Assembly (NCBI RefSeq): GCF_021531695.1 | Contig: NZ_JADYUI010000002.1 | Coordinates: forward strand, 1 to 64,000 | Reading direction: 5' to 3' | Source of the DNA: Roseburia hominis | GTDB lineage: Bacteria; Bacillota; Clostridia; Lachnospirales; Lachnospiraceae | Length of the DNA stretch: 64,000 bases | Shown here: positions 47,289 through 52,122 of the stretch, piece after piece | How the letters are laid out: each line of letters begins with the position of its first letter | Numbering within the stretch: position 1 is the first letter of the stretch | The notes under the pieces: generated by a model | What the model was told of the DNA's origin: nothing | Database searches by the model: none | Seen by the model: only the letters and a program-made list of their open reading frames with translations | Program-made: the position numbers and the translations under genes

Positions 47289-49055
47289 TTACATCTTATC
47301 CGGTGCCGAAAAACCAAGTACATCGATACAGGTTTCCAAGACACGTTTTGTTAATTCTAATAACTGAATATAGGATGCCTGAAGCTTCTCATCCTCTTCT
47401 GCCATAATCTTAGTTTCATGGTAAAAATGATTAAATGCATTTGCCACATCATAAATATACGCACATACCTTGTGCGGTGCCGTCTCCTCAAACGCATTCT
47501 CCATCATGGCATTAAACTTTGAAATTTCAAGCATCAATGCCTTTTCGCTCTCGGAATTTGGTGCTGAAATTGCAGCATTTTCCGCACTTTTTCCACTCTC
47601 TTTATATTTATTTAAAATAGATTTGATTCGAACGATGGTATACAAAATATACGGACCGGTATTTCCTTCAAAAGAAGTGAATCTCTCAATATCGAATACA
47701 TAATCCTTCGATGCCTGATTGGACAAATCCCCATATTTAATCGCAGCCAATGCAACAATTCCTGCAGTTTCTCTGGCTTCTTCCCCGCTCATGTTATTGT
47801 TGTCCGAAATCTTTTTATACATTTCTTCGTTAATCGTAGAAATAAGATATTCCAGACGCATGACGCCGCCTTCTCTGGTTTTAAACGGCTTTCCGTCTTT
47901 ACCATTCATCGTACCAAAGCCAAGGAATTTTAATTCGGTCTCCGGTTTTACCAGCCCTGTCTTTCTCGCGCAACGGAATACCTGTGTAAAATAAAGCTCC
48001 TGTCTCTTATCTACCACATAAATAAAAGTATCCGGATCGTAGTCTTTCACACGCCATACAATCGTTGCAAGATCGGTTGTATTATAAAGAGATGCTCCAT
48101 CGGATTTTAAAATCATACATGGCGGAATTTCCTTCGTGTCACTTTCTTCCTTGACATCAACAACCAGCGCTCCTTCGCTGACATAGGCATAGCCATCTTT
48201 TTTCATCTTCTCTACCATGTCAGGGATATATGGCTGTGCATCGGATTCCCCTTTCCATAAATCAAACGTAACATTTAAATTCTTATAATTTCTCTTTAAA
48301 TCTGTCACAGAAACCTCTAAAATGTGAGAAAGTAATGCCTGATAGCCCTTTCTTCCATGCTGCAATTCAAATGTCGCCTGCATTGCTCTTTCTTTATATT
48401 CTGCATCTTCTTTTGACTTCTTGCTGGCTGTCGGATAAATTTCCTCCAGCTCTGAAATTGTAAACGGAGCTTCTTTCGGATAGTCACCCTCATAATTCTC
48501 ATCAAAATATACTAATTCCGGTTTTCTTTCCTTTAACTCTGTGATGATAAGCCCCATCTGCAATCCCCAGTCGCCAAGATGCACATCACCGATTACCTTA
48601 TGTCCCATAAAACGCGCGATACGCTTAATACTCTCACCGATAATCGCAGAACGGATATGTCCGACATGAAGTGGTTTTGCAACATTTGGTCCGCCATAGT
48701 CAATCATAATGGTCTTTGGATTTTTCGTCTCTTCACAGCCCAGTCTGTCATCCTCTCTCATTCCATTCATGAAATCAGCGACAAATTCTGCTGTCAGCTT
48801 CAGATTTAAGAACCCCGGTTTTACCGCTTCGACAGAAGAAAATATCTCGCTCTCCTGTAACTTTCCTGCAATCTCTTCTGCAATCACAAGTGGTGCTTTC
48901 TTATATTCTTTTACCGCTGCAAGCGCACCGTTACACTGATATTCGCATAAATCCGGACGATTCGAAAGCGTCACCTTTGCATATTTTTCATCATATCCAC
49001 ATGCAAGAAATGCCCCTTTTACTTCCTCCGTAATCAAATCTAAGACTTTTTTCAT
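47289..49055 (-). CDS. argS: Arginyl-tRNA synthetase
   Basis: 588 residues, class I aminoacyl-tRNA synthetase. An N-terminal Add-1 domain precedes the catalytic fold with PLHVGHIRSAIIGESIKRI (HIGH equivalent HVGH). The canonical KMSKS is replaced as usual in ArgRS (FKTREGGVMRL). The C-terminal anticodon domain ends SAPDKM. Monocistronic, with a near-consensus promoter and a 120-nt leader containing a hairpin. No T-box is present. Confidence 0.97.
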   Translation of the reverse strand: MKKVLDLITEEVKGAFLACGYDEKYAKVTLSNRPDLCEYQCNGALAAVKEYKKAPLVIAEEIAGKLQESEIFSSVEAVKPGFLNLKLTAEFVADFMNGMREDDRLGCEETKNPKTIMIDYGGPNVAKPLHVGHIRSAIIGESIKRIARFMGHKVIGDVHLGDWGLQMGLIITELKERKPELVYFDENYEGDYPKEAPFTISELEEIYPTASKKSKEDAEYKERAMQATFELQHGRKGYQALLSHILEVSVTDLKRNYKNLNVTFDLWKGESDAQPYIPDMVEKMKKDGYAYVSEGALVVDVKEESDTKEIPPCMILKSDGASLYNTTDLATIVWRVKDYDPDTFIYVVDKRQELYFTQVFRCARKTGLVKPETELKFLGFGTMNGKDGKPFKTREGGVMRLEYLISTINEEMYKKISDNNNMSGEEARETAGIVALAAIKYGDLSNQASKDYVFDIERFTSFEGNTGPYILYTIVRIKSILNKYKESGKSAENAAISAPNSESEKALMLEISKFNAMMENAFEETAPHKVCAYIYDVANAFNHFYHETKIMAEEDEKLQASYIQLLELTKRVLETCIDVLGFSAPDKM

Positions 49056-49227: not shown

Positions 49228-50067
49228 TCAGACAAAGAAATGTTCTGCGACATAAAATGTTCCGACTTTTTCTGCCCTTCCCGTCAGATACATGGTAAAA
49301 TCCGATTTAATTTCAATCAAAAGCTCCCCACCCGGCATTGTAACTATAACTTCTTTCCCGCAAACACCAAGCCGGTAAGCACTTGCTACAGCAGCACAGG
49401 CACCGGTTCCTGAGGATAAAGTATAACCTGCTCCTCTTTCATATATTTCAAGTTCAATATGTTTTTCATCTTTCACATGACAAAGCTGCAAATTCGCCTG
49501 ATTCGGAAAATAAGAGGCATTTTCTACATAAGGGCCGAGTTCTCTTACTTTCTGCCCGGAAACATTCTCCATCATAATGACACAGTTTGGCGTTCCGACG
49601 GAAACACAGGTCGCATTATATAAATTTCCATGAAACAATAATGGTTCATTCACGATTTCTTCTGTATCACCCACAACCGGAATCTTATCACAGGCAAAGA
49701 CCGGTTTTCCCATGCAGACTCTTATTTTTTCTTCCTTTTCTCCAAGAAATTCTATCTCAAATTTTCCCGCTTTTGTATACAAAGTACCTTTCTTTTCCTT
49801 CCAATTACCGGTATCTTTTAAATATTTTGCAAAGATTATGACTCCGTTCCCGCTGTGACATGCTTCGCTTCCATCCGAATTAAAAATGCGGATATATTGT
49901 TTTTCCCCTGCTTCGATTGGTCCATACAAAATACCATCTGCACCAATGCCAAAATTCCTGCGGCACAAGAAAGAAATCTGTTTCTCTTCCAGCTTCAGTT
50001 CATTTTCTTTGGGATTCAAAATAAGATAGTCATTGCCAAACCCCTGGTATTTCTGCATTTTTAGCAT
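49228..50067 (-). CDS. DapF-fold protein with both catalytic cysteines replaced by serine
   Basis: 279 residues, clearly homologous to diaminopimelate epimerase (YQGFGNDYLIL, FGIGADGIL, FNSDGSEA, ERGAGYTL, TGACAAVASA). In canonical DapF the two catalytic cysteines sit in CGNG and in ACGTGA. Here these read SGNG (in ACHSGNGVI) and SSGTGA. The glutamate of GETLA is tyrosine. It may catalyse a different reaction or use serines. Annotating it simply as DapF would be unsafe. GAGG precedes the ATG at 50067. Confidence 0.8.
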   Translation of the reverse strand: MLKMQKYQGFGNDYLILNPKENELKLEEKQISFLCRRNFGIGADGILYGPIEAGEKQYIRIFNSDGSEACHSGNGVIIFAKYLKDTGNWKEKKGTLYTKAGKFEIEFLGEKEEKIRVCMGKPVFACDKIPVVGDTEEIVNEPLLFHGNLYNATCVSVGTPNCVIMMENVSGQKVRELGPYVENASYFPNQANLQLCHVKDEKHIELEIYERGAGYTLSSGTGACAAVASAYRLGVCGKEVIVTMPGGELLIEIKSDFTMYLTGRAEKVGTFYVAEHFFV

Positions 50068-51540: not shown

Positions 51541-51560
51541 TAAGGGGCATTAATGCCCCT
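51541..51560 (-). terminator. Terminator overlapping the yjdF stop codon
   Basis: AAGGGGCATTAATGCCCCTT is a perfect palindrome that includes the last codons and stop of yjdF. Confidence 0.7.
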
Positions 51561-51966
51561 TATGCTTTTCTTTTTTCTTTTGCTGTTTCAGTTCAAACAT
51601 TCTTTGTTCATCAGCCTCTTTTTGTTCCCGGCTTCTTACGATACGTTCCTGTTTGTTCTGCTCTTGCTGCAATTTCAATGCTTGTTGCGCCTTAGTACTA
51701 ATGCCTCTTTCCTGCATCTGTCTTTTCGCATCTCGCTGCATTCTTTTTGGATTCTTCCTTGCTTCCTTTACAAGAGTTGCAACAGCCGGACTAAATTGCA
51801 AACGATCATAGTATTTCAATATGAACTCATTGACTTCATATTCTTTTGGTTCCGCACCAAATGTTACCTTCGCCACGGATAAATGTCCTTTTTCGAACTT
51901 CTCAAAAATTCCTACCCAAAAAGGTTCCTCGAAATACACTGTCAGCTTGCCACTTGCTTTGTCCAT
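51550..51966 (-). CDS. yjdF: YjdF family protein (DUF2992)
   Basis: 138 residues. The N-terminal beta part (LTVYFEEPFWVGIFEKFEKGHLSVAKVTFGAEPKEYEVNEF) and the basic, glutamine-rich helical tail (NPKRMQRDAKRQMQERGISTKAQQALKLQQE) are the DUF2992/YjdF signature. The molecular function is unknown. In other Firmicutes the gene is switched on by azaaromatic compounds through a riboswitch, which suggests toxin handling. The leader here carries such a structure. The ribosome site AAGGAGG precedes the ATG. Confidence 0.92.
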   Translation of the reverse strand: MDKASGKLTVYFEEPFWVGIFEKFEKGHLSVAKVTFGAEPKEYEVNEFILKYYDRLQFSPAVATLVKEARKNPKRMQRDAKRQMQERGISTKAQQALKLQQEQNKQERIVRSREQKEADEQRMFELKQQKKKEKHKGH

Positions 51967-51974
51967 AACAATCC

Positions 51975-52110
51975 CTCCTTAAATTGATTGATGTACAAAG
52001 AACGGACAACCCGGAGGGGCAGGTTACTTACCATAGCATATGCTATGACGGCCGGGCTACCTACCGGCTCTAGCACATCTACTGATGCACATTGCGTTTT
52101 TATCTTTGCA
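51975..52110 (-). promoter_or_regulatory. yjdF-type riboswitch (azaaromatic-responsive)
   Basis: The 160-nt leader of the yjdF gene on the minus strand is highly structured. It holds GCCGGTAGGTAGCCCGGC (52051-52068), a loop with the perfect palindrome CATAGCATATGCTATG (52031-52047), and CCCCTCCGGGTTGTCCG near 52000-52016. Position upstream of a DUF2992 gene is the known context of the yjdF motif RNA. I recognise the motif from context and general shape and could not score it against a model. Confidence 0.78.
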
Positions 52111-52122
52111 AATATAAGATAT

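Follow-up and report, generated by a model that had tools for sequence, protein, structure and literature searches.

What does a protein do that has the fold of the diaminopimelate (DAP) epimerase DapF and serine in place of both catalytic cysteines? The question is raised by a gene on the minus strand of Roseburia hominis contig NZ_JADYUI010000002.1 (49228..50067; ATG start, 279 residues), which lies in a stretch of 64,000 nucleotides that we call the window. Its product, P0001, scores 212.2 bits over residues 5-269 against the NCBIfam DapF profile TIGR00652 (cut-off 114.65) and 169.2 bits against PF01678 (cut-off 34.7), its sole Pfam match at E values up to 1. No signature of a proline racemase or 3-hydroxyproline dehydratase was found in P0001, and the profile of the bifunctional DapF/glutamate racemase, NF038284, yields 57.9 bits against a cut-off of 350. 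The AlphaFold model (pLDDT 91.7, pTM 0.87) has DAP epimerase 9mro as its top structural match in the PDB (Foldseek, TM 0.90), and VIA-align ranks DAP epimerase (Z 35.6) level with the O-ureidoserine racemase 7vdy (Z 35.9).

When P0001 is aligned to the sequences of solved DapFs, Ser72 and Ser219, within the motifs EACHSGNGVIIF and ERGAGYTLSSGTGACA, fall on the two catalytic cysteines. Ser72 (codon AGC, 49852..49854, minus strand) occupies the N-terminal position, Cys73 of H. influenzae DapF, and Ser219 (codon TCA, 49411..49413, minus strand) the C-terminal one, Cys217; in the model, each stands at the N-terminus of a helix (73-85 and 220-232, respectively). A true DAP epimerase has cysteine at both places, and P0001 at neither. 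The double replacement in a preserved fold, which an earlier note had read from the sequence, is confirmed by profiles, alignment and codons, with the gene on the minus strand. The note had also drawn attention to GYTLS in place of GETLA. The underlying change of the Glu of the GET motif to Tyr215 (codon TAT, 49423..49425, minus strand) is real, but it is unspecific as a marker, for Tyr occurs at this site in all 116 related sequences described below and also in 7 of 59 sequences that retain both cysteines.

The two serines are the property of a clade. Among its 116 sequences (hereafter Ser/Ser), site 72 is Ser in 113, Thr in 2 and Gly in 1, and site 219 is Ser in 112, Thr in 3 and Asn in 1, which excludes chance or an assembly error as their source; Cys is found at both sites in 59 of 59 sequences of the comparison group (hereafter C/C), which is defined by these two sites. 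The members with another residue are L098 and L107 (Thr) and L034 (Gly) at the first site, and L021, L023 and L025 (Thr) and L026 (Asn) at the second. In a tree of 97 of the 178 distinct sequences, rooted at the midpoint with no outgroup, one branch parts 49 Ser/Ser from 48 other sequences with an SH-aLRT support of 100. Grouping within true DapF, the result that the earlier note had named as speaking against it, was not obtained; the Ser/Ser proteins form a clade of their own.

A profile built from 23 Ser/Ser relatives and run on overlapping samples of the class and the phylum (291 and 299 genomes) separates cleanly, with Ser/Ser proteins at 370 bits or above and everything else at 279 or below. 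Within the same family, 29 of 150 sampled genomes carry a Ser/Ser relative, one of these partial; the 28 full-length loci have Ser (27) or Gly (1) at the first site and Ser (24), Thr (3) or Asn (1) at the second. At least one further DapF-family match is present in all 29, so that the Ser/Ser protein is dispensable for DAP there. Outside the family its occurrence is sporadic (six sampled genomes), and the clade extends over several families. Named carriers among the best 80 of 467 matches of an alignment-based search of contigs are Roseburia, Blautia, Dorea, Faecalicatena, Extibacter and Acetitomaculum; these carriers are examples, and as the best 80 were the ones used, the loci are biased towards near relatives. 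A search of genome contigs with the single protein gave 10 pattern matches, none of which was confirmed as a relative. One genome (G054) has two Ser/Ser copies, on contigs C17 and C44 (L062, L063), which are near-identical in the tree.

The Ser/Ser clade is an old, monophyletic DapF paralogue family under constraint. With true DapF (TIGR00652, PF01678) it shares the whole fold, catalytic positions at helix N-termini and most of the Asn, Glu and Arg residues that bind DAP, and it passes the equivalog cut-off; it differs in that both catalytic Cys are Ser, in its separate position in the tree and in being accompanied by another DapF-family match in all 29 sampled carriers of the same family. We recognised no description of a Ser/Ser DapF or of its regulator in the openly licensed literature.

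How much of the substrate pocket has survived? According to PMC12039745, the near carboxylate of DAP is held by the backbone of two loops after the cysteines, and its far amino acid by a trio of Asn, a Glu and an Arg. Asn12, Asn63, Asn192, Glu210 and Arg211 are invariant in both groups (116/116 Ser/Ser, 59/59 C/C), and they correspond to DAP contacts described in that paper. Judged by alignment, a DAP-like substrate shell appears to be largely retained in the Ser/Ser clade. P0001 itself deviates at three places. Thr159 (codon 49591..49593, minus strand) takes the place of an Asn whose role, according to the same paper, is to bind the distal carboxylate; 111 of the 116 Ser/Ser sequences have this Asn. 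The His of GNPH, which is His in 59 of 59 C/C sequences, is Asn161 in P0001 (codon 49585..49587, minus strand), as it is Asn in 38 of 116 Ser/Ser sequences, and Arg77 is replaced by Ile. Residues that are fixed in the clade and not in C/C proteins (type-II switches) include Tyr7, Gly49-Pro50, Ile78, Glu207 and Tyr215.

P0001 does not stand alone in its genome (3.11 Mb), which encodes three DapF-family proteins: a C/C DapF on contig C53, a second C/C protein on contig C22, and P0001. The earlier note had proposed a check for DapL or a second canonical DapF; both are present, the former over cut-off at 610 bits with TIGR03542 (TIGR03540 was uninformative, giving generic aminotransferase scores with none over cut-off), while a profile search of the genome found no Ddh. 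Because a canonical C/C DapF, a DapL and a second C/C DapF are available, P0001 is not the housekeeping DAP epimerase. It is accessory in its own genome, where the canonical dapF has the operator described in the next paragraph and the Ser/Ser gene lacks it.

The main new result of our analysis is a link between regulator and operator. An AraC-type regulator (HTH_18 plus AraC_binding) is encoded in 59 of 105 Ser/Ser neighbourhoods, which are related loci and not independent ones, and in 52 of the 105 an AraC-type gene immediately adjoins the Ser/Ser gene and diverges from it; L101, L105, L121, L124 and L135, which have no usable Ser/Ser ORF, are omitted from the counts. A 38-bp direct-repeat element with the consensus naGCAtTtTTTGCAATATannaaGCAntattT, a putative operator, precedes the start of the Ser/Ser gene by 41-205 bp at 56 of the 104 loci. 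It is absent at the window gene, and no stretch of the window scores above 8.6 (maximum of five shuffles, 7.7). Elsewhere in the same genome, one copy of the element (33.8 bits) stands before the canonical dapF and its downstream neighbour murE, and another (33.9 bits) separates an AraC gene from an operon that comprises a trans-sulfuration PLP enzyme, dapF2 and murE2; both sites are outside the training set of the matrix, and shuffled stretches reach at most 8.8 (18 shuffles). The AraC orthologue at the dapF2 operon is 59% identical to a Ser/Ser-linked AraC. A congener (G122) has the element before dapF-murE at 24.3 bits, and the remaining 27 loci of the 28 fetched for C/C dapF of other genomes gave no element scoring above 14; among these 28, L282 and L286 have no DapF label and L295 is not a dapF locus. 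Since the pair of AraC regulator and operator stands at dapF-murE and at the PLP enzyme-dapF2-murE2 operon, the Ser/Ser family is placed in cell-wall diamino-acid metabolism. Judged by these predicted binding sites, the regulator appears to act on genes of the DapF family and on genes for wall precursors, and the Ser/Ser and C/C forms of DapF seem to replace each other in its regulon.

The dapF2 locus of the genome (L067, 6243-10771 on C22), where the AraC regulator diverges from the trans-sulfuration PLP enzyme, the second C/C dapF and the second murE, gives the impression of a module dedicated to some alternative diamino acid of the stem peptide, lanthionine or cystathionine for instance. 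In another genome (G101), the divergent neighbour of a PLP enzyme-dapF2 pair proved not to be the AraC regulator.

A D-Ala-D-Ala ligase gene directly precedes the Ser/Ser gene with a four-base overlap in L057 and L232, a MetY gene is no more than three genes away in six loci, and a CysK gene immediately precedes it in two. No constant downstream operon partner was found among the neighbourhoods. At the window locus, P0001 is followed after a gap of 172 bp by a gene on the same strand (47289..49055, minus) that we take to be argS-like from its sequence; its family recurs as a neighbour in 31 loci. Rfam searches of 40 loci and the window revealed no lysine, T-box or SAM element at the Ser/Ser gene.

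Some genomes have the Ser/Ser protein as their only DapF relative. It is the sole PF01678 protein in a genus of three reduced genomes of 1.5-1.7 Mb (g302). One of these (G379), which is 99% complete on one contig, has adjacent dapA- and dapB-like genes (dapB over cut-off), lysA and DapD_Ac (349 bits), with no Ddh at E values up to 1e-5 and no DapL match; within the genus, the results for DapL, Ddh, lysA and dapB are those for this genome. DapD_Ac is also present in the second genome (G728, 40 contigs) and was not found over cut-off in the third (G729). Should DAP be epimerised in this genus, no candidate by homology was found for that step other than the Ser/Ser protein. That it is a working thiol-free epimerase of DAP or an analogue, and the sole one in this reduced clostridial genus, is a doubtful proposal. 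Two further genomes with only a Ser/Ser protein speak against a general role with DAP, as evidence of LL-DAP synthesis is scant or missing in them: in G400 Ddh is present, but neither DapL nor DapD_Ac exceeds the cut-off, and in G705 dapB, DapL, DapD_Ac and Ddh all lack a convincing match. Two others that seemed to combine a lone Ser/Ser protein with DapL were set aside, G518 because it is 94% complete with 5% contamination and has the gene on a 4.4-kb contig, and G172 because it is 85% complete and has a second partial PF01678 match.

From these observations, we hypothesize with a probability of roughly 0.4 that the Ser/Ser proteins are a DapF paralogue family that handles a DAP-like ligand, thiol-free proton transfer being the favoured activity. 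Conserved residues and shared regulation make it likely that the family works on a DAP-type ligand as part of wall metabolism; that it does so and also catalyses epimerisation we would put at clearly less than even odds. The protein would bind DAP or a DAP-like bis-amino acid, for which lanthionine and cystathionine are candidates, in cell-wall precursor metabolism. The two helix N-termini next to Ser72 and Ser219 would receive the alpha-carboxylate of the ligand, and Asn63, Asn192, Glu210 and Arg211 would bind its distal amino acid. The most likely step would then be the thiol-free transfer of a proton at the alpha-carbon of the bound ligand, in effect an epimerisation assisted by a hydroxyl group or by water, which may proceed more slowly, or be more specialised, than the DapF reaction. 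Partial precedents for turnover by a Ser/Ser protein may be seen, by analogy, in the reduced genus and in a Thr-for-Cys racemase, Ecl-DER, whose fold differs from that of DapF. This aspartate/glutamate racemase works with Thr for one catalytic Cys, as PMC8142540 reports; a hydroxyl residue takes the place of Cys in both proteins, but Ecl-DER has only one Cys replaced. In the related HisR, Cys-to-Ser mutants lose most of their activity, according to PMC11602996, and epimerisation by a Ser/Ser protein would thus violate the thiolate rule. Further counterpoints to our hypothesis are that Asn159, Arg77 and His161 are gone from P0001, whose gene has no operator, and that the links to Ddl, MetY and CysK are each confined to few loci. 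The earlier note had proposed a shifted chemistry and not decay. The second half of that reading is supported and the first remains a proposal: the largely kept DAP shell, the tie to the dapF/murE regulon and the position as sole DapF relative in the reduced genus make an epimerase of DAP or an analogue as live as a new reaction.

Our preference for thiol-free proton transfer over a binding protein is slight. The latter would be a pseudoenzyme derived from DapF that binds DAP or muropeptides and senses or buffers them, or modulates the AraC regulator or a DapF or Mur enzyme, with no turnover. Both acid/bases are lost while the binding shell is largely kept, the gene diverges from one regulator and is co-inherited with it, and in the sampled family another DapF relative is always present; moreover, Cys-to-Ser mutants of HisR hold sulfate or phosphate in the site, as described in PMC11602996. 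We nevertheless consider a protein devoid of turnover unlikely, if seriously to be reckoned with, because in one genus with DAP-pathway genes it would be the sole DapF relative, because the AraC neighbour is missing in the window and in several other lineages, and because a pure binder has no obvious need for Ser at both sites (112-113 of 116).

Returning to catalysis, the Ser/Ser family might carry out a new reaction on a related substrate, such as an elimination, an isomerisation or a different kind of proton shuttle, for which other families of the DapF fold that can do without a pair of cysteines offer parallels. The type-II switches would suit such a change, the fold superfamily includes PhzF and the hydroxyproline dehydratases, and a trans-sulfuration enzyme, CysK, MetY or Ddl adjoins the gene or the regulator in some lineages. 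In the trans-3-hydroxyproline dehydratase/proline racemase group, which has a DapF-like fold (Z about 24, sequence identity about 11-16%), one Cys is replaced by Ser or Thr with a changed outcome, whereas in the Ser/Ser family both are replaced. However, the evident clade-specific acid/base candidates come down to Glu207 and Tyr215, the latter shared with some C/C sequences, and no catabolic partner gene is constant. A new reaction is in our view unlikely, somewhat more so than a binding protein. The histidine racemase CntK and the O-ureidoserine racemase DcsC are like HisR in using two cysteines. DcsC (7vdy), CntK and HisR, also a histidine racemase, resemble the Ser/Ser family in being DapF-fold paralogues with substrates of their own, as described in PMC12039745 and PMC11602996. 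Two cysteines are reported for HisR in PMC11602996; the Ser/Ser family has none and has largely kept the residues for the distal amino acid of DAP.

The substitution patterns point to selection. Nine sequence pairs give pN of 0.05-0.26 against pS of 0.45-0.91, synonymous sites being near saturation. Site 72 is encoded by AGC (69), AGT (41) or TCC (3), apart from Thr (2) and Gly (1), and site 219 by all four TCN types (112 in total), apart from Thr (3) and Asn (1). As Ser codons turn over synonymously at both sites, it is serine itself that is kept; AGY at one site and TCN at the other would fit separate single-base steps from a Cys codon. The full-length Ser/Ser matches listed contain no internal stop; the TAG in L149 is simply where that gene, and with it the match, terminates. 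Purifying selection, with Ser retained through synonymous codon turnover, upholds the earlier exclusion of decay. That a duplicated dapF is losing its function is accordingly very improbable: the window copy has no operator, lacks three conserved residues and has an end branch of 0.33 against 0.17 in its congener, but the pN and pS values, the intact reading frames and the spread of the clade over several families already contradict decay for the clade.

The Ser/Ser protein probably has a job that nobody has assigned. Its genes pass the curated cut-off for 'diaminopimelate epimerase' and are therefore likely to be so labelled, although both residues of the accepted mechanism are missing. If the protein epimerises DAP, the textbook two-thiolate mechanism would be dispensable for cofactor-independent amino-acid epimerases, and gut bacteria would gain an epimerase insensitive to thiol-directed inhibitors; if it does not, common gut bacteria carry an unassigned protein in a cell-wall diamino-acid regulon. 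In either case, the regulator and its operator predict co-responding genes and metabolites that are worth testing.

Our searches also returned DapF-family proteins of a different kind. In L154 a DapF is fused behind the large subunit of carbamoyl-phosphate synthase, and the same is indicated for L158 and L173 by a long frame only; the first catalytic Cys is replaced by Ala, Ala and Gly, respectively, in the three. Many further matches in the same listing have frames near 1350 residues.

Two RNA elements were also noted in the window. A TwoAYGGAY RNA (RF01731; 50176-50341, minus strand, 106 bits) lies 109 nt upstream of the P0001 gene. It was rejected as a leader of P0001 and is probably an independent RNA, since in L068 and L087 copies are located elsewhere, on either strand. 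An azaaromatic (yjdF) riboswitch (51986-52113, minus strand, 70.7 bits) is situated directly upstream of an ORF of 138 residues (51550-51966).
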